Assembly: GCA_947369085.1 (NCBI GenBank) | Contig: CANBJR010000006.1 | Span: 1 to 64,000, forward strand | DNA: 64,000 nt | Direction of reading: 5' to 3' | Source of the DNA: an uncultured Clostridia bacterium | Lineage (GTDB): Bacteria; Bacillota; Clostridia; Oscillospirales; Acutalibacteraceae | Shown: positions 36-9,539 of the stretch, piece after piece | Position numbering within the stretch: the stretch's first letter is position 1 | Layout: each line of letters opens with the position of its first letter | The notes under the pieces: generated by a model | Told to the model about the DNA's origin: nothing | The model's input: only the letters and a program-made list of their open reading frames with translations | Database searches by the model: none | Made by a program: the position numbers and the translations under genes

Positions 36-1634
36 TTAAGTTGACGACATTGCCTCGCAGGGATTACTTATTGAAAAGCTTTTGCTTGTTATCTTAATTC
101 TGATTTCATTAATATCGGTTGTATATTTTACGGAATTATCAACAAAGTTTTCTATTACGCATTTTATAAGTTTTTTATCGGCATTTATTTTTACATCGCC
201 ATCGCTTTCAAGCACTATGTCATAAATCATATATTTTTCAATAATTTTCTCTGTGAGATGTGTCAGACTGAAATTTCGAATATTCAAGTTAAAATTTGCA
301 GAATCGAGTTTTGAATAATCAAGCATTTTTGAAACAAGCTCATTCATTGACCTTGTCTGTTCATTTATAACCTCACAATAATGCGTTCGTTTGTCAGTGT
401 TTACATTTTCTTCAAGATTTTCCGAGTATCCGCTGATAATAAAAAGCGGAGTTTTCAACTCGTGCGCCATTGAATTTGTTACTGTTCTCAATCGGTTTTC
501 TTGCTCTATTTGTTTTTTTAATGTTCTCCATGTGATTGCACCGATAATTACACCTGTTATCAAAAATACTGAAAGGATAAATACAAGCATAAAAATCAGC
601 TTATTGAAACAACTTTCTAGTACGTTGAATTTTCGTGCATAATTGCAGATGAAAGATATATTCTCATCAGAATCATATGGTTTAACGGACATTTGTTCCC
701 AGTTTGAGTATATATATGTAAACGGCGCAACATTTAATACTGTATGTACCTCGTATTCTCCGTACATATTAGTCTCATATATTTCTACTGTACCTTCCTT
801 TTGAGTAGAAATATCGTTCCCGTCAACTTTGTAATTATCTGTTACAAAGTCGTAATACTCATCTAACGCAGTACTTGCTTTATATTTTCCAAATACAAAA
901 TCATCATCAATAGCATTTCGGTGCATTTCTGTCTGACAATATAATTCAGCTTTTTTATCTGCAAGCGTAGGTTTTAATTCGTAATGCTTTATAACCTTGT
1001 CTTGTGCATACCAGTCGTTATCCTCGCTTGTCTGAACAATTTCAACACTTTTAGGTTGTAAATAACTTTTATCAATGTAGTATTCGGTACATAAAAGCTC
1101 ATAGTATTTGCCGTCACCGGTGTTTTTTTTCGTAAGATAATCTGAAATTTCGCTATATTGCTTGTCTGTCATAGAGTTTTTGAAGTGTTCAAATTCAATA
1201 CAACCAAAATCGGTAACATAGCTTTTTTCAATTATCTCTATTGAATCGTCATTTTCTGATATTTCGTCACCTGTGTGTTCTATATCACCCTCAAATGCCA
1301 CCGAGACCGCATTACCAGTCTGACAAAGTATCGCTCCGGTATCATTTTCTGTAATCTTAATCTGTTCGTCAACATCAAAATCATCAGAAATGTCCTTGAA
1401 CTTTTTATCGTATTTTCTGTTTAGAAGATAGTTTCCCCAGTTGTTGTTTGTTAAGTTCTGCATATTTACTGTTGCCTGATGAAAAGAGGAAGCAGAATTA
1501 CTTGTAAGTAAATCAAGTTCTGAATAATACGTTGTAACAGCAAACACGGCATACACTATTATACTTAATGCAAGCAAAGATACTGAAATGCTGATAAACA
1601 GTCTGCGTTTTTGTTTAATAAGTTTCTTCTTCAT
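36..1634 (-). CDS. Sensor histidine kinase of a two-component system, C-terminally truncated reading frame
   Basis: Membrane sensor kinase partnered with the response regulator just upstream; the regulator's TGA and this ATG overlap as TGATG, so the two are translationally coupled. Visible parts are a basic N-terminus, membrane segment 1 (about residues 12-35), an extracytoplasmic domain of about 300 residues that I cannot assign to a family, membrane segment 2 (about 345-367), and a HisKA domain with MAHELKTPL (phospho-acceptor His near 391). The start of the ATPase domain follows with the N box NFVDNSVKYT near 496-505. The frame stops at residue 532, before the D/G1, F and G2 boxes that hold ATP. 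The frame past the stop stays open to the window edge (EKFQNTAQKFK), so a nonsense change, an assembly error or a real short kinase are all possible. As read, it should not autophosphorylate. Confidence 0.85.
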   Translation of the reverse strand: MKKKLIKQKRRLFISISVSLLALSIIVYAVFAVTTYYSELDLLTSNSASSFHQATVNMQNLTNNNWGNYLLNRKYDKKFKDISDDFDVDEQIKITENDTGAILCQTGNAVSVAFEGDIEHTGDEISENDDSIEIIEKSYVTDFGCIEFEHFKNSMTDKQYSEISDYLTKKNTGDGKYYELLCTEYYIDKSYLQPKSVEIVQTSEDNDWYAQDKVIKHYELKPTLADKKAELYCQTEMHRNAIDDDFVFGKYKASTALDEYYDFVTDNYKVDGNDISTQKEGTVEIYETNMYGEYEVHTVLNVAPFTYIYSNWEQMSVKPYDSDENISFICNYARKFNVLESCFNKLIFMLVFILSVFLITGVIIGAITWRTLKKQIEQENRLRTVTNSMAHELKTPLFIISGYSENLEENVNTDKRTHYCEVINEQTRSMNELVSKMLDYSKLDSANFNLNIRNFSLTHLTEKIIEKYMIYDIVLESDGDVKINADKKLIKCVIENFVDNSVKYTTDINEIRIKITSKSFSISNPCEAMSST

Positions 1635-2311
1635 CAGTATTCACCTATCCTGTAACCACGCTTAACTACCGTTTTAATCATTTTTGAGTTATCTCCCAGC
1701 GCTTTGCGAAGATTTTTAATGTGAGTGTCAAGCGCACGTTCGTCAACATCGCTGTCATAGCTCCAAGCTGATTTTATCAGAGTATCTCGTGATACGACAC
1801 AGCCTTTATTCTCAAGCAAAGTTTTAAGAATGGAGTATTCCTTTGCCGGAAGATTTATTTCTTTTTCATCTGAAATTACAATCCCGTTGTTTGGGTTGAG
1901 GGAAAGCGTTCCGAATTTCAAAACCGATGAACGCACGAGTCCTTTTGAACGCTTTATAAGAGCATTTACCTTGTTATAGAATACAGGCAGAGAAAAGGGT
2001 TTTACTATATAATCATCACAGCCAAGCGCATAGCCTGTTAAAATATCCTCCTGCGCACATCTTGCAGTTATGAACATAATAGGAACATCACTGAAATGCC
2101 GTACCTCCTTACAGATTTCAAATCCGTCAAGTTGTGGAAGCATAATATCAAGCAAAAGTAAATCATAGGTGCTTTCGTAAGCCATATCTGCACCCTTTTT
2201 TCCGTTATCAGCAACGTCAATTAAAATATTATTTGAACTTTTCTCTATGAAATAATCGCACAGCATTTCGCTTATGTTCTTATCGTCTTCAACAAGAAGT
2301 ATCCTGTACAC
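1634..2311 (-). CDS. OmpR/PhoB-family response regulator
   Basis: DNA-binding response regulator. The receiver domain carries the acidic pair in LLVEDD, the phospho-acceptor Asp in LLLLDIMLPQLDG and the conserved Lys in DYIVKPFS. A winged-helix Trans_reg_C domain follows and ends in KTVVKRGYRIGEY. I place the start at the GTG at 2311 rather than the track's ATG at 2335. AGAGGTGA lies about 5 nt before the GTG, the protein then begins (V)YRILLVEDD as relatives do, and the upstream ATG lies inside a TATGAT -10 element. It is co-transcribed with the kinase and probably controls both itself and the divergent transport operon through paired 11-bp-period repeats. Confidence 0.93.
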   Translation of the reverse strand: MYRILLVEDDKNISEMLCDYFIEKSSNNILIDVADNGKKGADMAYESTYDLLLLDIMLPQLDGFEICKEVRHFSDVPIMFITARCAQEDILTGYALGCDDYIVKPFSLPVFYNKVNALIKRSKGLVRSSVLKFGTLSLNPNNGIVISDEKEINLPAKEYSILKTLLENKGCVVSRDTLIKSAWSYDSDVDERALDTHIKNLRKALGDNSKMIKTVVKRGYRIGEY

Positions 2312-2330
2312 AATCTTCACCTCTGTATAA

Positions 2331-2437
2331 ATCATATTAAATCAATCTGTGTTTTATCTGTAGTTATGATAATATTCTACATTAAATATAAATTTTTTGC
2401 AATTCTACAGATAAACTACAGACACTCGTTTTATAAT
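2331..2437. promoter_or_regulatory. Divergent promoter with two inverted copies of a response-regulator operator
   Basis: On the plus strand, CTACAGATAAACTACAGA (2405-2422) is two CTACAGA half-sites 11 bp apart, followed after 9 bp by TATAAT (2432-2437). On the minus strand, CTACAGATAAAACACAGA (2363-2346) matches it at 16 of 18 positions and is followed after 9 bp by TATGAT (2336-2331). Neither promoter has a good -35 hexamer; the repeat occupies that place. Tandem half-sites one helical turn apart in place of the -35 are typical of activation by OmpR/PhoB-family regulators. That the adjacent regulator binds here is inference. Confidence 0.8.
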
Positions 2438-2453: not shown

Positions 2454-3851
2454 ATGAAAAAAATTTTGTCTTTCATAATATGCGCAGTGATTTTATTTTG
2501 TACAGCCTGCACAAGTTCCGAAAACCCCAACAACATTTCTGAAACTGTAAATAATCTTCCGAGCTATTATTATTCAGCAGAAGGAAGCGGAACAGTATTT
2601 GATATAATAGAGCGGTATAATAAGTACTGTAAAAGAAACGGTGAGTACGATAATCAGATTGAACTTGTAAAGTTTGAAAGCGACAAAATTATGTACGATA
2701 TAATATCAACAGAAATTATGGCGGGAAAAGGCCCTGATATTTTCAGCTTTGATATGCTTTTGCCTTTCGAAAAGCTTATTGGTAACGGTTCATTAGCCGA
2801 TATTAACGAGCTGATAGAAAATGATCCTGCTGAGGATAAATTAAATCTTAACGAATACAATAAAACAATTATGGATGCAGGAGTGTATAACAGCAAGAGG
2901 TATATTATTCCTATTCTTTATAATTTTGATATTATGATTTCAAGTGAAAATATCCTCCATAAATTTGGTGTTAGATATAAGCAGGGAGATTCGCTTACTT
3001 ACAGCACTCTTGGAGAAAAGTTTAAGAACTATTTTTATAGCCCTGACAGTTTCAGTTTTTTGACTTCAGATGCTGCAAGGCACGGAAGAAAATCTATATT
3101 TTACAAATTTTTAAACGAATATGTTGATTTTAAAAATATGACAACGGATTTTGATACCGAAGAATTTACAAACAGCCTTGACGTAATGAGCGAAATTTAC
3201 AGGAATTCAACGGAAGAAAACTATATTATCTTGGATAACGATAAAAAAGATATTGAATGGGGAGAGAGTAAAAATTTAATTTTCGATGCATTATTTTCAG
3301 ATGGCGGCTCGCCGAGAATAATTGAAAGCTTTTACAGAAGTAATTTTAACAACTACATTGAAAAGCCTGTTATTTTTAACGGACTGTCAAGAACAAAAAA
3401 TTCAGGTAAAGCATATATGGAATATGCAGTTGCTATCAACAATAATTCAAAACATAAAGAAACAGCCTTTAAATTTATTAAATATCTCCTGTCAGAGCGA
3501 ACACAGGAATATTATACAGGCATTTTATCAGGGTCTGATTTTGCAGGCTATACTTATGGTATTCCGGTACGTAATGAAGCTTTTGAACTGAATAAAAAAC
3601 TGGGATTAAACGAATGTGATGATTACGGCTACACAATAAAAGTCCACGAGGAATACAGCGATTTCACAAAGGTTTATCTGGAAATGCTTGAAAATATCAA
3701 CAGAGTATCAATTTACCCGAATGGAAATTATTCCTATTATGATATAAATGTGATTCAAAGTTCTGTTAATGATTATCTTGAAGGAAAAATATCTAAAGAA
3801 AAATTTATACGCCAGCTTACTACAGCTACCGATACCTATTTAAAGGAGTAA
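2454..3851 (+). CDS. Extracellular solute-binding lipoprotein (ABC importer), first copy
   Basis: Probable ABC-importer binding protein of the bacterial sugar-binding type. It has a short basic N-terminus, a hydrophobic stretch and a lipobox-like CTAC near residues 18-21, so it should be lipid-anchored outside the membrane. IMAGKGPDIFSFDM and the tail ending near RQLTTATDTYLKE fit the family-1 fold. The track begins at a GTG (2445) that sits in the ribosome site AGGCGGTGA; the ATG at 2454 (MKKILSF) is better. It is the first gene of the operon, 5 bp from a second binding protein that resembles it over the whole N-terminal half. The substrate cannot be told from sequence. Confidence 0.88.
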   Translation: MKKILSFIICAVILFCTACTSSENPNNISETVNNLPSYYYSAEGSGTVFDIIERYNKYCKRNGEYDNQIELVKFESDKIMYDIISTEIMAGKGPDIFSFDMLLPFEKLIGNGSLADINELIENDPAEDKLNLNEYNKTIMDAGVYNSKRYIIPILYNFDIMISSENILHKFGVRYKQGDSLTYSTLGEKFKNYFYSPDSFSFLTSDAARHGRKSIFYKFLNEYVDFKNMTTDFDTEEFTNSLDVMSEIYRNSTEENYIILDNDKKDIEWGESKNLIFDALFSDGGSPRIIESFYRSNFNNYIEKPVIFNGLSRTKNSGKAYMEYAVAINNNSKHKETAFKFIKYLLSERTQEYYTGILSGSDFAGYTYGIPVRNEAFELNKKLGLNECDDYGYTIKVHEEYSDFTKVYLEMLENINRVSIYPNGNYSYYDINVIQSSVNDYLEGKISKEKFIRQLTTATDTYLKE

Positions 3852-3856
3852 CAATT

Positions 3857-5152
3857 ATGATTAAAAAAGTAATAAGTCTAATTTTATGCTTACTGGCATT
3901 GACGGGGTTTTCTGCCTGCAGTGACTCAACAGCCGTAGGTACAAAGAATAAAATTACAACATATACTCTTAAAAACTGGTACTCAATTTCAGAAGGCAAT
4001 AGTATATGGAATTATAACAAACATTGCAAGGACTCAGATAAAATGATAGAAATAGTTGAATTTGAAACTGAAGAGGAATTAAAAAATAAGCTTAGCACCG
4101 AACTTATGAGCGGGAAAGGTCCTGATTTAATTTCTGCTGATTGCTTGTCAGCAGCAGGAATTTCTTATGAAAAGCTCATTGATCAGGGGTGTTTTGTCGA
4201 TATAAACGAAGTAATTAAAGCCGATACATCTCAAGATCAACTAAATCTGTCCGATTACAATGAGAAGGCATTGCAAAGCGGAGTTATAAATGGAAAAAGA
4301 TATTTTATTCCATTTTATTTTATGCCGAATTTTTGTGTAGCTTCACAACAGGAATTAGAAAAATATATAAATGCTGATACAAAGTCTTTGTCATACAATG
4401 ATATTATTAAAATAAACGATAAAATCAATGAAGAGAAAAGCGACAAGGTTATTTCATCAAATGCCGACGGTTATATTTGGTCATATGTTTATGATAATGT
4501 TGATTTTATTAACAAAACTTATAATTTCGACGGAGAATTTTCATCAACAGCCGAAAAATTAAAGGAATTAAAGGGTACGGGGGACAAAATAAAAGAAGAA
4601 CTATTGCAAGAGTTTGTTATTTCACCTTATCAGATATATGAATATTGTGCAGAAATTGAGAAATATGGAGAAACAGCAAGGATAATAGGAAAGCCGTCAA
4701 TTGACACCGACGTATTGAGCGCTCAGATGTGTGGTATTTATTTTATAAATAAAAACTCCGCTAAAAAACAAGATATACTGGAATTTATAAAATATGCATT
4801 GTCTGAAAAAGAACAAAATGATGTTGCGGGCACAGATATTGAAAAATACGATAACACAACAAGTTATTACGATGGTTCATACTTCCCGGTAAATAAGAAA
4901 TCATACAAATCACTTATGAATAATGCTAAAAAGTTAAAATATCTTGATGATACCATAAAAATAAGTAATGAAAGCGTAGAACAGCTTGAAAATATACTTG
5001 CACAAATTTCAGATTTTCAATTTTCGCAAAGTACAAATTATATGACGGAAGTCGGCAGTGAGCTGATAAGCGACTATGTTGACGGAAAAATTAGTATAAG
5101 TATGTTTGTTGAAGATTTGAAAACTAAGACAAAAATCTATATGGAAGAATAA
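3857..5152 (+). CDS. Extracellular solute-binding lipoprotein (ABC importer), second copy
   Basis: Second lipoprotein of the operon, with lipobox-like FSAC near residue 20. It shares with its upstream neighbour the order of a Tyr/Ser-rich start, KLSTELMSGKGPDLIS, DINEVI, LNLSDYNEKALQSGV and NGKRYFIPF, so the pair looks like an old tandem duplication that has diverged strongly in the C-terminal half. The ribosome site AAGGAG overlaps the stop region of the first gene. Two binding proteins feeding one permease pair could widen substrate range, or one could act as a sensor partner of the kinase; both are inference. Confidence 0.85.
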   Translation: MIKKVISLILCLLALTGFSACSDSTAVGTKNKITTYTLKNWYSISEGNSIWNYNKHCKDSDKMIEIVEFETEEELKNKLSTELMSGKGPDLISADCLSAAGISYEKLIDQGCFVDINEVIKADTSQDQLNLSDYNEKALQSGVINGKRYFIPFYFMPNFCVASQQELEKYINADTKSLSYNDIIKINDKINEEKSDKVISSNADGYIWSYVYDNVDFINKTYNFDGEFSSTAEKLKELKGTGDKIKEELLQEFVISPYQIYEYCAEIEKYGETARIIGKPSIDTDVLSAQMCGIYFINKNSAKKQDILEFIKYALSEKEQNDVAGTDIEKYDNTTSYYDGSYFPVNKKSYKSLMNNAKKLKYLDDTIKISNESVEQLENILAQISDFQFSQSTNYMTEVGSELISDYVDGKISISMFVEDLKTKTKIYMEE

Positions 5153-5156
5153 TATT

Positions 5157-6008
5157 ATGACAAGAAAAAGAAAAGACTATCTTACAGCATTTTTGTTTGT
5201 TTTGCCGTCACTTATCGGGATTGCAATTTTTTATGTTGTTCCATACATAATCTGCATTATCAAAAGTTTATACATTGGGCAGGAATTTGTAGGACTGATA
5301 AACTATATTCAGCTTTTCAGTAACAATACATTTATTCTTGCATTAAAGAATACAGTGATATTTACAGTTGTTGCAATACCTTTGCTTATGATTATTTCAT
5401 TTTTGATTGCACTTTTTCTTAACTCATTCAAAAAAATTTTATCATTTTTCAGAAGTGCGTTTCTTATTCCTGTTGTTGTTCCAGTTGCGTCGCTTATCTG
5501 TGTTTGGCAGGTTGTTTTTGATGACTACGGGGCAATCAACGGACTATTAAATACATTAGGTATTGATACCGTGGAGTTTTTCAGCTCTGAATTTTCAATG
5601 GGAATGATAATTTTTATATATGTTTGGAAATACTGCGGATTTTGCGTAATTTTGTTTACTGCGGGTCTTGCTAATGTTCCAAAATCTCTTTATGAAGGTG
5701 CAAAACTTGACGGCGCAAATTCATTTCAGCTTGTAACTAAAGTCACAATACCGATGATTACACCAACTACTTTCTTTGTCTTTCTTATAGAAATAATATA
5801 TTCTTTTAAAATTTTCCGTGAGGTATTTGCTTTGTTTGGCAACTATCCGAATGAACACATTTATTTTTTGCAGAATTTTATAAACAACAATTATTATAAT
5901 CTCAACTATCCGAGATTATCATCCGCCTCTATAATCCTTTCAGTTTTTATAATAATTATTCTGCTTGTTTTCTTTATTTTTGAACGCAAACACAGTTTTT
6001 CGGAATAG
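5157..6008 (+). CDS. Sugar-type ABC transporter permease (MalF/UgpA-like)
   Basis: Inner-membrane permease of the binding-protein-dependent type. The 283 residues are mostly hydrophobic and fit six membrane segments, starting at FLFVLPSLIGIAIFYVVPYI. The cytoplasmic EAA loop that docks on the ATPase is clear: EGAKLDGANSFQLVTKVTIP near residues 180-200. It starts 4 bp after the second binding protein. No ATPase gene lies in the operon, so it presumably shares an MsmX/MsmK-type ATPase encoded elsewhere, as many Firmicute sugar importers do. Confidence 0.93.
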   Translation: MTRKRKDYLTAFLFVLPSLIGIAIFYVVPYIICIIKSLYIGQEFVGLINYIQLFSNNTFILALKNTVIFTVVAIPLLMIISFLIALFLNSFKKILSFFRSAFLIPVVVPVASLICVWQVVFDDYGAINGLLNTLGIDTVEFFSSEFSMGMIIFIYVWKYCGFCVILFTAGLANVPKSLYEGAKLDGANSFQLVTKVTIPMITPTTFFVFLIEIIYSFKIFREVFALFGNYPNEHIYFLQNFINNNYYNLNYPRLSSASIILSVFIIIILLVFFIFERKHSFSE

Positions 6009-6018
6009 AGAGGGTAGT

Positions 6019-6843
6019 ATGAAAAAGATTATAAAATGCATATTCCTGTTACTTGTCACAGCAATATTTCTGTTTCCTGTTGTGTATATGATAGCCTGTT
6101 CCTTTATGTCAAGCTCACAAATAAGCAAAATGCTCGACTTTGCAAACGGAGAATATAAGGATTTAAATATGATTCCGGAAATGTTTACACTTGAGCAGTT
6201 CTATCAGGTGCTTTTCAGACGTCCTGAATATCTGCTGAAATTTTGGAATTCCGTAATCATAACTTTACCTACGGTAATCGGTCAGGTTGTTGTGTCCTCA
6301 TTTGCGGCATTTGCTTTTGCAAAGTTAAAATTCCCGTTTCGGGACAAACTGTTTTTCATTTACATTGTTTTGTTGATTCTGCCATTGCAGGTAACACTTG
6401 TTCCAAATTATATTATTCTGGATAATATGAATTTACTAAATAATTTTCTCGCAATAATATTACCCGGAACATTCTCAACTTTCGGTATTTGTCTGTTAAG
6501 GCAGAGTATTAAATATATTCCTGACTCATCAATTGAGGCAGCAAGGATAGACGGAGCTTCGTATTTCAGAATTTTTACAAGAATTATTATACCGCAGATA
6601 AAAGGAGGCCTCATAACGCTGACATTACTTTGCTTTATTGACAATTGGAATGTGGTTGAACAACCTTTAATTTATTTTGAAGAAAATTCAATGTATCCGC
6701 TTTCAATTACAATGGCAGATATAAGCAATTCAGACTACGGTATTATATTTGCCTGCGGAGTAATGTTTATGATTCCTGCACTTGTTATCTATTTCTACGG
6801 TCACAAAGATATTAACTTATCAATCTATGATATTGAAAAGTGA
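6019..6843 (+). CDS. Sugar-type ABC transporter permease (MalG/UgpE-like)
   Basis: Second half of the permease pair. The EAA loop reads IEAARIDGASYFRIFTRIII, and the hydrophobic pattern fits six segments. The track starts at 5965 inside the previous gene; the ATG at 6019 (MKKIIKC) has AGAGAGGGT about 4 nt ahead and gives the usual length of about 274 residues. Expected to form a heterodimer with the upstream permease. It is followed after 7 bp by a small membrane protein not normally found in sugar-importer operons. Confidence 0.93.
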   Translation: MKKIIKCIFLLLVTAIFLFPVVYMIACSFMSSSQISKMLDFANGEYKDLNMIPEMFTLEQFYQVLFRRPEYLLKFWNSVIITLPTVIGQVVVSSFAAFAFAKLKFPFRDKLFFIYIVLLILPLQVTLVPNYIILDNMNLLNNFLAIILPGTFSTFGICLLRQSIKYIPDSSIEAARIDGASYFRIFTRIIIPQIKGGLITLTLLCFIDNWNVVEQPLIYFEENSMYPLSITMADISNSDYGIIFACGVMFMIPALVIYFYGHKDINLSIYDIEK

Positions 6844-6850
6844 GGTTTTT

Positions 6851-7252
6851 ATGAAACAGGATAAATACAAAAAAATGGCTATGAAATTTGGGGCATTATT
6901 TTTTGTTGTGGTGTTATTTCTTACATATTTTTCAAAGACAATTGATAACTTGCTTTTGCCAAAGGTAAAAGTTTCAGATGTAATTACAGGAAGCCTTTCA
7001 GAATATCCCGACACTATGCACACGCATTATTTATTACCGCTTTCGTCGGTTGTATCAGAAGAAGTATATGTTATATTTACTGATGAAAAGGGAGAAGTAA
7101 CAGTAAATGCAGTATCGGTAAATATCTGCGGCAGTAATGACCTATATTATGAAGTAACGTCAGAGTCTCTTTTTTCGGATATGCAGGTGGTATATAAGAC
7201 ATCAAAAGAAATCTTTGACGGTGACAGGGTATATGTAGAGGAGGGGGAATGA
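6851..7252 (+). CDS. Miniature membrane-fusion (MacA/HlyD-like) adaptor, single membrane anchor
   Basis: 133-residue protein starting at MKQDKYKK (ribosome site TGAGGT; the track start lies inside the permease gene). It has one membrane segment (about residues 12-28) followed by TIDNLLLPKVKV, wording typical of the start of Gram-positive RND/MacA-type adaptor proteins. It then jumps to what resembles their C-terminal membrane-proximal domain: LLPLSSV, a VYVIFTD strand, and the closing FDGDRVYVEEGE. The lipoyl, hairpin and barrel parts between are missing. I read it as a reduced adaptor; that reading rests on motif resemblance only. Its stop overlaps the next start (ATGA), so the two are probably partners. 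Confidence 0.6.
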   Translation: MKQDKYKKMAMKFGALFFVVVLFLTYFSKTIDNLLLPKVKVSDVITGSLSEYPDTMHTHYLLPLSSVVSEEVYVIFTDEKGEVTVNAVSVNICGSNDLYYEVTSESLFSDMQVVYKTSKEIFDGDRVYVEEGE

Positions 7253-8361
7253 TGAAAAGAATTTTGCCAAGTCTAATTCTTTTTATAATTATTATTGTAT
7301 CTTTCTTCTATTTTACGACTAATATAACAAATCAGTTTCCAAACGCAACTCTGATGAATTATAATTTAAAATCTTCCAAAGAACCTCTCACCATAGCCGA
7401 TATGGAAACACTTTTTGAAAGTATTTCAAATAACGGTGTTGCATTTTGCTGCGAGTATAAAGAAGTGAAAATTAAAGAAGAAGCTGTTACCATTGCGCTT
7501 GTAAATGAGAATTTTCTCAATGTTATGAATATAAGTTTAAAAGAAGGTATTTCTGAAAATAATATTACAAACAAGGCTTATTCTGTTGTAATAAGCGATA
7601 AACTCGCATTAAAATTATTTTTTAACAAAAAAGCAGAAAATAAAAAATTAAATATTCTCGGTAAAAATTTTAAAATAACAGATGTGTATAATATAAGTTC
7701 AAGTATTTTTGATGACATTTCAAAAGACGGTAAGGAACGTATTTATATACCGTACACCTGCGTTGATAACTATGAAGATATTAATATTGATTCAATTGCT
7801 TATTTAAATAATTCGCTATCAGCGCCTTTGATAGAGCAAATGAATTTAAGTCAATACAATTCGGTTAATTTTACGGAAAAATGTAAGGTTATCCATACAT
7901 TTGAACATCTGATGTGTTTTTGCTTATTTACAGGTTTCTGCATAATCTCAATAAAAATATGGTACTTACTGTGCAGAAAGTATTTCAGAGAAATTAAAGA
8001 TAATCTAAAAGAAAACTACATTCTTAAATCAATTGCTTCAATACCTACAAAATATTTATTATTGATTCTTGCAGGAATCGGCATACCATTGATTCTTCTG
8101 TGTATATTTTTCTGTTCGGATTTCAGTGTTTACATAGTTTCAAAATATGTGCCGAATGACAATATCTTTGATGTAACGCATTATATAAGCTCAATTATTG
8201 AAAACGCAAATATTTCAAATAGATTCGCACTTACAGGAAATAATTATCTATTTACTTTATATTCAAAAACGTGTTACATCTTAATATCTATTTTTACTTT
8301 GTTTATTATCTCACACTTTATTATAATTTGTAAGGTTTTAAATAAGCTGAAAACTATATAA
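7249..8361 (+). CDS. MacB/FtsX-like ABC-type membrane protein without ATPase
   Basis: 370 residues with four likely membrane segments, near 5-24, 221-242, 268-290 and 342-364, and a large external domain between the first two. This is the layout of MacB/FtsX permeases. The external domain holds a weak match to the MacB periplasmic core, with a VNENFLNVMNISLKEG stretch followed by VVISDKLALKLFFNKKAENK and ILGKNFKITDVY. The ribosome site GAGGAGGGGG lies just before ATGATG, and the start overlaps the adaptor-like gene. The usual cytosolic ATPase partner is absent nearby. Last gene of the operon. Function unknown; transport, mechanotransmission to the kinase and envelope sensing are all possible. 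Confidence 0.6.
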   Translation: MMKRILPSLILFIIIIVSFFYFTTNITNQFPNATLMNYNLKSSKEPLTIADMETLFESISNNGVAFCCEYKEVKIKEEAVTIALVNENFLNVMNISLKEGISENNITNKAYSVVISDKLALKLFFNKKAENKKLNILGKNFKITDVYNISSSIFDDISKDGKERIYIPYTCVDNYEDINIDSIAYLNNSLSAPLIEQMNLSQYNSVNFTEKCKVIHTFEHLMCFCLFTGFCIISIKIWYLLCRKYFREIKDNLKENYILKSIASIPTKYLLLILAGIGIPLILLCIFFCSDFSVYIVSKYVPNDNIFDVTHYISSIIENANISNRFALTGNNYLFTLYSKTCYILISIFTLFIISHFIIICKVLNKLKTI

Positions 8362-8642: not shown

Positions 8643-9539
8643 ATGAACAAATCGAAAACAGTAAATAAAAACATTGCTATAATTGTTGCTGTTGCTATTT
8701 CCATAATAATGGCCGTAACATCAGTAGTATGTACAGTCCTTGGAGCTGACCGTAATACAGACAACAACACATACTTAACTGACGCTAAAGGCGTTGTAAC
8801 CGATTTTGTAAACAACGAAAGCTACAACAATTTCACTTTTATGGACGGCCTTTTTGCAAAAGCAAATATTGTATCTGCCTGCGTGGATGAACATACTAAT
8901 GCTGATGTAATTGCTGAAATTACAAAGAATCTTAGGCTTAATTCTTTTGTAGTAACTGACCCTGATGGCAAAATAATTAGTGCTACTGACGCTGATAAAA
9001 TCGGAACAAACATTCTTGACGATGAAAACACAAATCAGTTTAAAAAAGTATTAAAAGGTATAGCGTATAAAAGCACAAATGAGCCGAAAGCTGTTGAGGG
9101 CGAAAATGGTATTTATAATGTTATGGCTTGCGTAACACGTTCAGCAGGCGGTGTTGTGGTTATAGATATTGACACTAACACTTATGCTTCAGTTACCGGC
9201 AAAGATATTGCTAAAAGTTGCAAAGGCGATACAATCATTGCCAAAGACGGAAAAATTATTAGTTCAAACTTTGATATTGCCGAAGCAACCCAACTTGAAA
9301 ATCTTGGAATTACGGAAGATATGTTGAATGATGATGCGTTTACAATAACAGTTAATGATGTTAATTATTCGCTCAGCGCCGAGAATGTTGATGATTACAC
9401 AGTAATAAGCGGTGCAGTTATGGAAGAAAGCGGATTCGATTATATTTTCGGAGTTGTAATACCTACTGCTGTATGTGCGGTAATGATTCTTTTATCAGTA
9501 ATAATATTTACTGTATCCGGTAAGAAAAAAGAAATCTGA
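8643..9539 (+). CDS. Membrane-anchored Cache (PDC) sensor-domain protein without output domain
   Basis: 298 residues: membrane segment near 10-33, an external domain of about 235 residues, membrane segment near 270-292, and a short basic tail (GKKKEI). The external part reads like a Cache/PDC ligand-binding domain (FVVTDPDGKIISATDADKIG followed by a later FKKVLKG helix), as found in chemoreceptors and sensor kinases. No HAMP, kinase, cyclase or methyl-accepting part follows. The ribosome site is GAAAGGAATATAG. It is a single-gene unit closed by a strong terminator. It may sense a ligand for a separate partner; the ligand is unknown. Confidence 0.65.
   Translation: MNKSKTVNKNIAIIVAVAISIIMAVTSVVCTVLGADRNTDNNTYLTDAKGVVTDFVNNESYNNFTFMDGLFAKANIVSACVDEHTNADVIAEITKNLRLNSFVVTDPDGKIISATDADKIGTNILDDENTNQFKKVLKGIAYKSTNEPKAVEGENGIYNVMACVTRSAGGVVVIDIDTNTYASVTGKDIAKSCKGDTIIAKDGKIISSNFDIAEATQLENLGITEDMLNDDAFTITVNDVNYSLSAENVDDYTVISGAVMEESGFDYIFGVVIPTAVCAVMILLSVIIFTVSGKKKEI

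Follow-up and report, generated by a model that had tools for sequence, protein, structure and literature searches.

How might an operon work that joins the lipoproteins and permeases of a sugar-type ABC importer to a MacA/MacB-like pair and contains no ATPase gene of its own? We addressed this question for a locus near the start of a 64,000-nucleotide stretch of DNA from an uncultured Clostridia bacterium, a gut Ruminococcus (contig CANBJR010000006.1; the whole stretch is hereafter called the window). As judged from sequence comparison, one architecture is well supported: the locus probably encodes a single importer-powered complex combined with an unpowered MacA/MacB-like module, under the control of its own two-component system (TCS).

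The six-gene unit and its conservation

Six closely packed genes occupy positions 2454-8361 (+) of the window, with intergenic gaps of 4-10 bp and an overlap of 4 bp between the final two (Table 1). The first-pass annotation had described them as an importer set followed by a mini-adaptor and a MacB-like protein. All are present as described, and analysis of relatives confirmed that the six-gene unit is real and conserved. The components of a CUT1 (MalFGK-type) importer, namely a solute-binding protein (SBP) of the lipoprotein type and two permeases with EAA loops, are all encoded, and no ABC ATPase gene lies inside the unit (2454-8361). Just 3' of the operon, a gene at 8643-9539 (+) encodes a membrane protein; its sensor domain resembles dCache (weak Pfam matches), and no effector domain was recognised.

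Table 1. Genes of the operon and of the divergent two-component system, with the promoter boxes between them (window coordinates)
Feature	Position	Strand	Basis or remark
Sensor histidine kinase, large extracytoplasmic domain	36..1634	-	HisKA E 7e-15; partial HATPase_c
OmpR/PhoB-type response regulator	1634..2335	-	Response_reg and Trans_reg_C
Direct-repeat box CTACAGATAAAACACAG	2347..2363	-	faces TCS genes; matching box in other TCS loci
Direct-repeat box CTACAGATAAACTACAG	2405..2421	+	faces operon; sole zero-mismatch match in window genome
Solute-binding lipoprotein 1, CbpC-like	2454..3851	+	SBP_bac_1 (Pfam) E 5e-10; nearest solved structure 7x0o CbpC, E 4e-21
Solute-binding lipoprotein 2	3857..5152	+	SBP_bac_1 (Pfam); paralogue of lipoprotein 1, 30% identical
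MalF-like permease with EAA loop	5157..6008	+	BPD_transp_1 E 3e-11; EAA loop conserved in aligned loci
MalG-like permease with EAA loop	6019..6843	+	BPD_transp_1 E 9e-14; EAA loop conserved in aligned loci
Mini-adaptor, 133 aa: one TM helix and MacA-type membrane-proximal domain	6851..7252	+	alignment to full-length adaptors; AlphaFold
MacB-like 4-TM protein, 370 aa, ATPase-less	7249..8361	+	MacB_PCD E 1e-11; enlarged TM3-TM4 extracytoplasmic loop

We searched 148 relatives using the MacB-like protein as query, and matches came from 24 genomes. In a scan of named genomes, relatives turned up in the Ruminococcus bromii group, Pseudoruminococcus massiliensis and Anaerobacterium chartisolvens, and wider searches added members from further families of the same class and from another class of that phylum; the hybrid set thus recurs across clostridia. 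None of the 62 pattern matches in viral contigs was a relative. We then counted gene order in 58 distinct loci, defined by their MacB-like reading frames, 52 of which had more than 3.2 kb of upstream sequence. The adaptor gene lay directly 5' of the MacB-like gene in 52/52 and the order MalF-MalG-adaptor-MacB was kept in 50/52, counts that describe the companions of the MacB-like gene, through which (or through its profile) relatives were collected, and not how often these companions occur without it. The genes occur together far more often than chance would allow, and the last two are conserved with the first four; the first-pass annotation had named the opposite outcome as a refutation. The two exceptions were L107, with an abnormal MalG-adaptor reading frame, and L110 (genome G255), in which MacA-MacB come first and SBP-MalF-MalG after.

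The L110 operon also lies directly 3' of an ABC-2 ATPase/permease pair; the ATPase of this pair is similar to lantibiotic-protection types but scores below cut-off. In L046 (G137), two SBP-MalF-MalG-adaptor-MacB sets stand in tandem, and in the second of them the adaptor region is shorter and divided.

Power source and the MacA/MacB-like module

A motif scan of the operons of L027-L079 revealed no ABC ATPase except a peptidase-containing exporter (PCAT) in L049/L052. In seven distant loci an ATPase is encoded inside the operon, always most similar to UgpC/MsmX and never of the MacB type. The two scored against the NCBIfam UgpC model reached 466 and 469 bits (cut-off 432), and the three compared were 61-62% identical to a stand-alone MsmX-like gene of the window genome (G000:C46). 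That gene passes the UgpC cut-off itself and adjoins a pseudouridine-synthase-like gene, with no permease beside it in the 2.6 kb read. Matches to the PCAT profile in L116-L118 turned out to be UgpC-type ATPases. A MalK/UgpC/MsmX-type ATPase, as used by CUT1 importers, is available both in the window genome, where it is stand-alone, and in the operons of distant relatives; the EAA loops of MalF and MalG are kept in aligned loci, apart from one masked stretch. The first-pass annotation had found no ATPase for either permease type. This holds for the window unit, but the energy source of MalFG is no mystery, because the in-operon ATPase of distant relatives is of the importer's own UgpC/MsmX type. 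Shared ATPases have been described elsewhere: MsmX of Bacillus subtilis serves several importers (PMC5730181), and C. thermocellum transporter B is powered by a stand-alone ATPase (PMC9601137).

The MacB-like protein has no such partner. MacB_PCD was recognised by Pfam in 22/22 MacB-like proteins and FtsX, at E<=0.1, in 0/22; the control search gave 11 canonical FtsX matches elsewhere in the window genome. The AlphaFold model of the window protein (pLDDT 89) has four membrane helices, and Foldseek matched it to the MacB fold (A. baumannii MacB, E 2e-12). The protein accordingly combines the MacB periplasmic core domain and 4-TM fold of the type VII family with a membrane domain that Pfam does not recognise as FtsX-type, and no cognate LolD/MacB-type ATPase was found fused or adjacent in L027-L079, the seven distant loci having UgpC only. 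Its most conserved region is the TM3-TM4 loop (residues 290-332; mean conservation 2.53 bits vs 1.84-2.30 in other regions), with the core Y[IV]PxDNIFD; this loop is short in MacB (PMC5985334). These sequence features suggest that the MacB-like protein functions with no dedicated ATPase, its former partner having been lost.

Searched alone, the mini-adaptor matched no family, and the adaptor profile retrieved no convincing sequence homologue from the PDB. In its AlphaFold model (pLDDT 82), the best Foldseek folds were the MexA/AcrA/CusB/BesA adaptors, with weak E-values (best 0.02) and high Foldseek probability. A complete MacA/HlyD adaptor comprises lipoyl, hairpin, barrel and membrane-proximal domains; the window adaptor consists of a TM helix and a membrane-proximal-like domain and, by alignment, is without the inserted region found in full-length adaptors. 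Several divergent members have adaptors of 341-559 aa, an intermediate group has about 230-240 aa, and other Ruminococcus loci have mostly 133-164 aa; the much longer forms occur in L045, L046, L106 and others, with an HlyD_3 match in L106.

Loss of the conduit-building adaptor parts argues against an export duct. The lack of a recognisable FtsX domain (22/22) and the missing inserted region of the mini-adaptor speak against the proposal that two independent machines are merely co-transcribed, an MsmX-using importer and a MacAB-type efflux pump borrowing a LolD/MacB-type ATPase. ABC ATPases of LolD/MacB size do occur elsewhere in the window genome, and Gram-positive MacB relatives function in peptide detoxification (PMC5985334), but the scanned operons held no MacB-type ATPase and the seven distant ATPase-bearing ones only UgpC, so we regard this proposal as very unlikely. 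The first-pass annotation had suggested an importer with an attached envelope sensor or exporter. An importer with an envelope module fits the evidence best; the reduction of the adaptor, in most Ruminococcus loci, to a TM helix plus a membrane-proximal domain makes an exporter less likely. That interpretation therefore stands in part: the conserved hybrid and the lack of an ATPase in the unit are borne out, the exporter and the ATPase puzzle are not.

Regulation, divergence and gene neighbourhoods

The regulator and kinase genes are divergent from the operon and lie about 110-120 bp upstream of it. Among the TCS-bearing relatives compared, the response regulator is 62-91% identical. Window base 1 is a contig edge (G000:C6), at which the kinase frame stops inside the ATP-binding domain; kinases of relatives extend about 65 aa further, including G boxes, and this stop may represent either an edge effect or a real truncation. 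Two boxes, both direct repeats with an 11-bp period, stand in the divergent promoter (Table 1). They are the top two matches in the genome, and further two-mismatch matches numbered 2, vs 1 for a reversed control pattern. A box-like site at G000:C29, between rubrerythrin and purL, was set aside as weak. The operon-facing box is identical in L042, L048 and L073, with variants in L045, L076 and L079. Paired boxes are present in most TCS-bearing relatives checked, lying between regulator and operon in L034, L042, L044, L045, L048, L068, L069, L073, L076 and L079 (some of which are the same contig twice), and in weaker form in L053/L054; the sequence differs in L032/L033 (= L066/L067). The boxes appear to tie the operon to the neighbouring TCS, and the regulator would bind them. 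A profile of the window kinase sensor found no match among distant TCS kinases, and for this reason we do not claim TCS orthology across classes.

Comparison of the parts revealed unequal divergence. At 70-80% MalFG identity, mean identities were 72 for the regulator, 46 for the kinase core and 36 for the kinase sensor (regulator and kinase values from 15/81 pairs), and 41 for the adaptor exterior, 40 for the PCD, 39 for the MacB transmembrane helices and 33 for the best SBP. The extracytoplasmic parts thus change together, and far faster than permeases and regulator. Faster outer divergence suits ligand-driven change; relaxed constraint could produce the same pattern.

In six distant loci from three families (L116-L118, L156, L157, L159), the operon is part of gene clusters that encode VanS together with varying combinations of VanR, VanI, VanW, VanZ-like protein and S11 DD-carboxypeptidase. 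The L117 proteins exceed the NCBIfam cut-offs for VanI (749; cut-off 700), VanW (473; 365), VanR (422; 350) and VanS (406; 400), as does VanR of L116 (427; 350); the VanZ-like and S11 proteins of L118 fall below theirs, and other van assignments rest on phmmer similarity to L117/L118 proteins. Among 83 genomes of the class of G867, the hybrid occurs in 4 and vanI in 9 (E<=1e-85). All four hybrid genomes are among those nine, with 1.7-5.1 kb between operon and vanI, an overlap with a chance probability of about 7e-5 when shared ancestry is ignored. The van link is limited to one distant lineage group, and no van genes were found beside Ruminococcus loci; in one of these (L072), an S11-like gene lies directly 3' of the MacB-like gene. 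A vanI-bearing genome holds a second hybrid copy (L158, G867 C6), with a divergent regulator-kinase pair instead of van genes and exporter-type ABC genes on its flanks.

A different neighbourhood was observed in L049 and L052, where a radical-SAM/SPASM gene and a GG-leader peptide precede the operon and PCAT lies within it; the one PCAT scored, that of L049, exceeds its NCBIfam cut-off. These regions (L049 170-5865, L052 111-5862; R. bromii 5AMG and P. massiliensis) form a candidate RiPP cluster, in which the maturase, a Cys-containing GG-leader peptide and PCAT are interleaved with the operon. PCAT fragments are left in L027/L050, L028/L057, L051 and L055. The cassette is clade-limited: at the threshold used, 3/161 genomes of the genus had PCAT, 1 of them in the hybrid operon. 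Sporulation, glycolysis and proline genes beside some loci were considered as functional partners and rejected as apparently lineage-specific.

Ligand, proposed mechanism and known systems

Evidence bearing on the ligand comes from CbpC (7x0o), to which both window SBPs are nearer in sequence than to any other solved structure. The gene for CbpC is present in locus L105 (identical over 437 aligned residues), where genes for MoxR, MalF and MalG, an adaptor split in two and the MacB-like protein come after it. The "transporter C" of C. thermocellum (CbpC, MsdC1, MsdC2) is thus of the same operon type, with MalF-MalG-adaptor-MacB-like order and the loop sequence YLPPDNVFD. It differs in its adaptor, which is read in two overlapping frames (300 + 152 aa; L105 9634-10987, -), and in the MoxR-type gene inserted between SBP and MalF. 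The cited publications treat it as a putative sugar transporter; the legend of Fig. 1 in PMC9601137 lists an "acra" gene, and a text search of that paper gave no mention of MacB. In glucose-adapted cells, two genes of the CbpC operon were raised (PMC8303734).

A plain oligosaccharide importer that shares MsmX, takes up a nutrient carbohydrate and uses the adaptor and MacB-like protein as accessory scaffolding would agree with the CUT1-type SBP and permease families, with the stand-alone MsmX-type ATPase of the window genome and with the presence of R. bromii among the relatives. R. bromii is a starch degrader. According to PMC9601137 and PMC11212667, Nataf 2009 reported that CbpC binds sugar. 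Yan 2022 (PMC9601137), however, found that CbpC binds none of the sugars tested, that its pocket is blocked and that mutant growth is normal. No sugar-degradation genes were found among scanned neighbours, and the van and RiPP neighbourhoods also speak against this explanation, which we consider unlikely.

Import of peptidoglycan fragments, induced when the wall is remodelled and serving to recycle muropeptides or stem peptides, would account for the D-Ala-D-Lac ligase, S11 DD-carboxypeptidases and VanW nearby, and for the S11-like gene immediately 3' of the MacB-like gene in Ruminococcus L072; sugar-plus-peptide ligands would presumably suit CUT1-type SBPs. Scanned neighbours, however, included no amidase, muropeptide-catabolic or N-acetylglucosamine genes, and the RiPP cassette would be left unexplained. 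We consider this explanation unlikely as well.

An envelope-response role is likeliest because of the neighbourhoods and the negative sugar data of a relative: the operon probably encodes a TCS-controlled envelope-response importer, not a plain sugar transporter. We hold with moderate confidence a complete account in which one importer-powered envelope complex carries an unpowered MacA/MacB-like collar, is switched by the TCS and handles a wall-related ligand. The CbpC-like lipoproteins would hand ligand to the MalFG channel, which a shared ATPase of the UgpC/MsmX type would drive. The MacB-like protein and the reduced MacA-like adaptor, now without their former ATPase, would form an unpowered extracytoplasmic collar that aids ligand capture or handover. 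The TCS would sense a condition and switch on both itself and the operon through the paired direct-repeat boxes, and the most likely ligand would be a molecule that acts on or derives from the cell wall, rather than a nutrient sugar. Sequence and comparison show that the gene set is conserved, which type of ATPase relatives use, that FtsX is not recognisable, that the promoter has its boxes, that the outer parts diverge faster and that van and RiPP genes are neighbours in some loci; physical assembly, transport direction, regulator binding, the collar's role and the ligand class are inferred. More tentatively, the importer ATPase may drive, or work with, the engine-less collar in a chimeric complex that mounts a TCS-controlled response to cell-wall-active antimicrobials, with "cellodextrin transporter C" as a misassigned member.

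If the account is correct, a type I importer has merged genetically, perhaps physically, with a member of the type VII mechanotransmission family stripped of its ATPase, which raises the question of whether a MacB-like collar can be driven, or otherwise used, by an importer. The C. thermocellum transporter that has been investigated for sugar import would gain a new testable role, and vanI-type glycopeptide-resistance clusters a companion operon. The literature searched, of which coverage was partial, yielded no paper that describes this hybrid as a family.

Among known systems, the MsmX-powered CUT1 importers AraNPQ and MdxEFG of B. subtilis are not known to have an adaptor or a MacB-like protein. 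The likeness to these lies in the supply of the ATPase by a shared MsmX gene (PMC5730181). The vanI cluster of Desulfitobacterium, published as vanX-murF-vanK-W-I-R-S in a paper whose text does not contain the terms ABC transporter, permease or efflux (PMC4229326), is the counterpart of the van settings of the six distant hybrid loci. With the type VII systems MacAB, YknXYZ and SpMacAB (PMC5985334), the hybrid shares the MacB periplasmic domain and fold and the MacA-like adaptors, full-length in divergent members; unlike them, it is linked to MalFG, has an enlarged, conserved TM3-TM4 loop and shows neither a recognisable FtsX domain nor an ATPase partner. The BceAB-BceRS detoxification and sensing modules likewise place a MacB-related membrane protein beside a dedicated TCS. 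BceB, however, has ten transmembrane segments and its own ATPase, whereas the hybrid has a protein of 370 aa with four modelled membrane helices and no ATPase, a kinase with a large sensor domain, and MalFG as the powered part.
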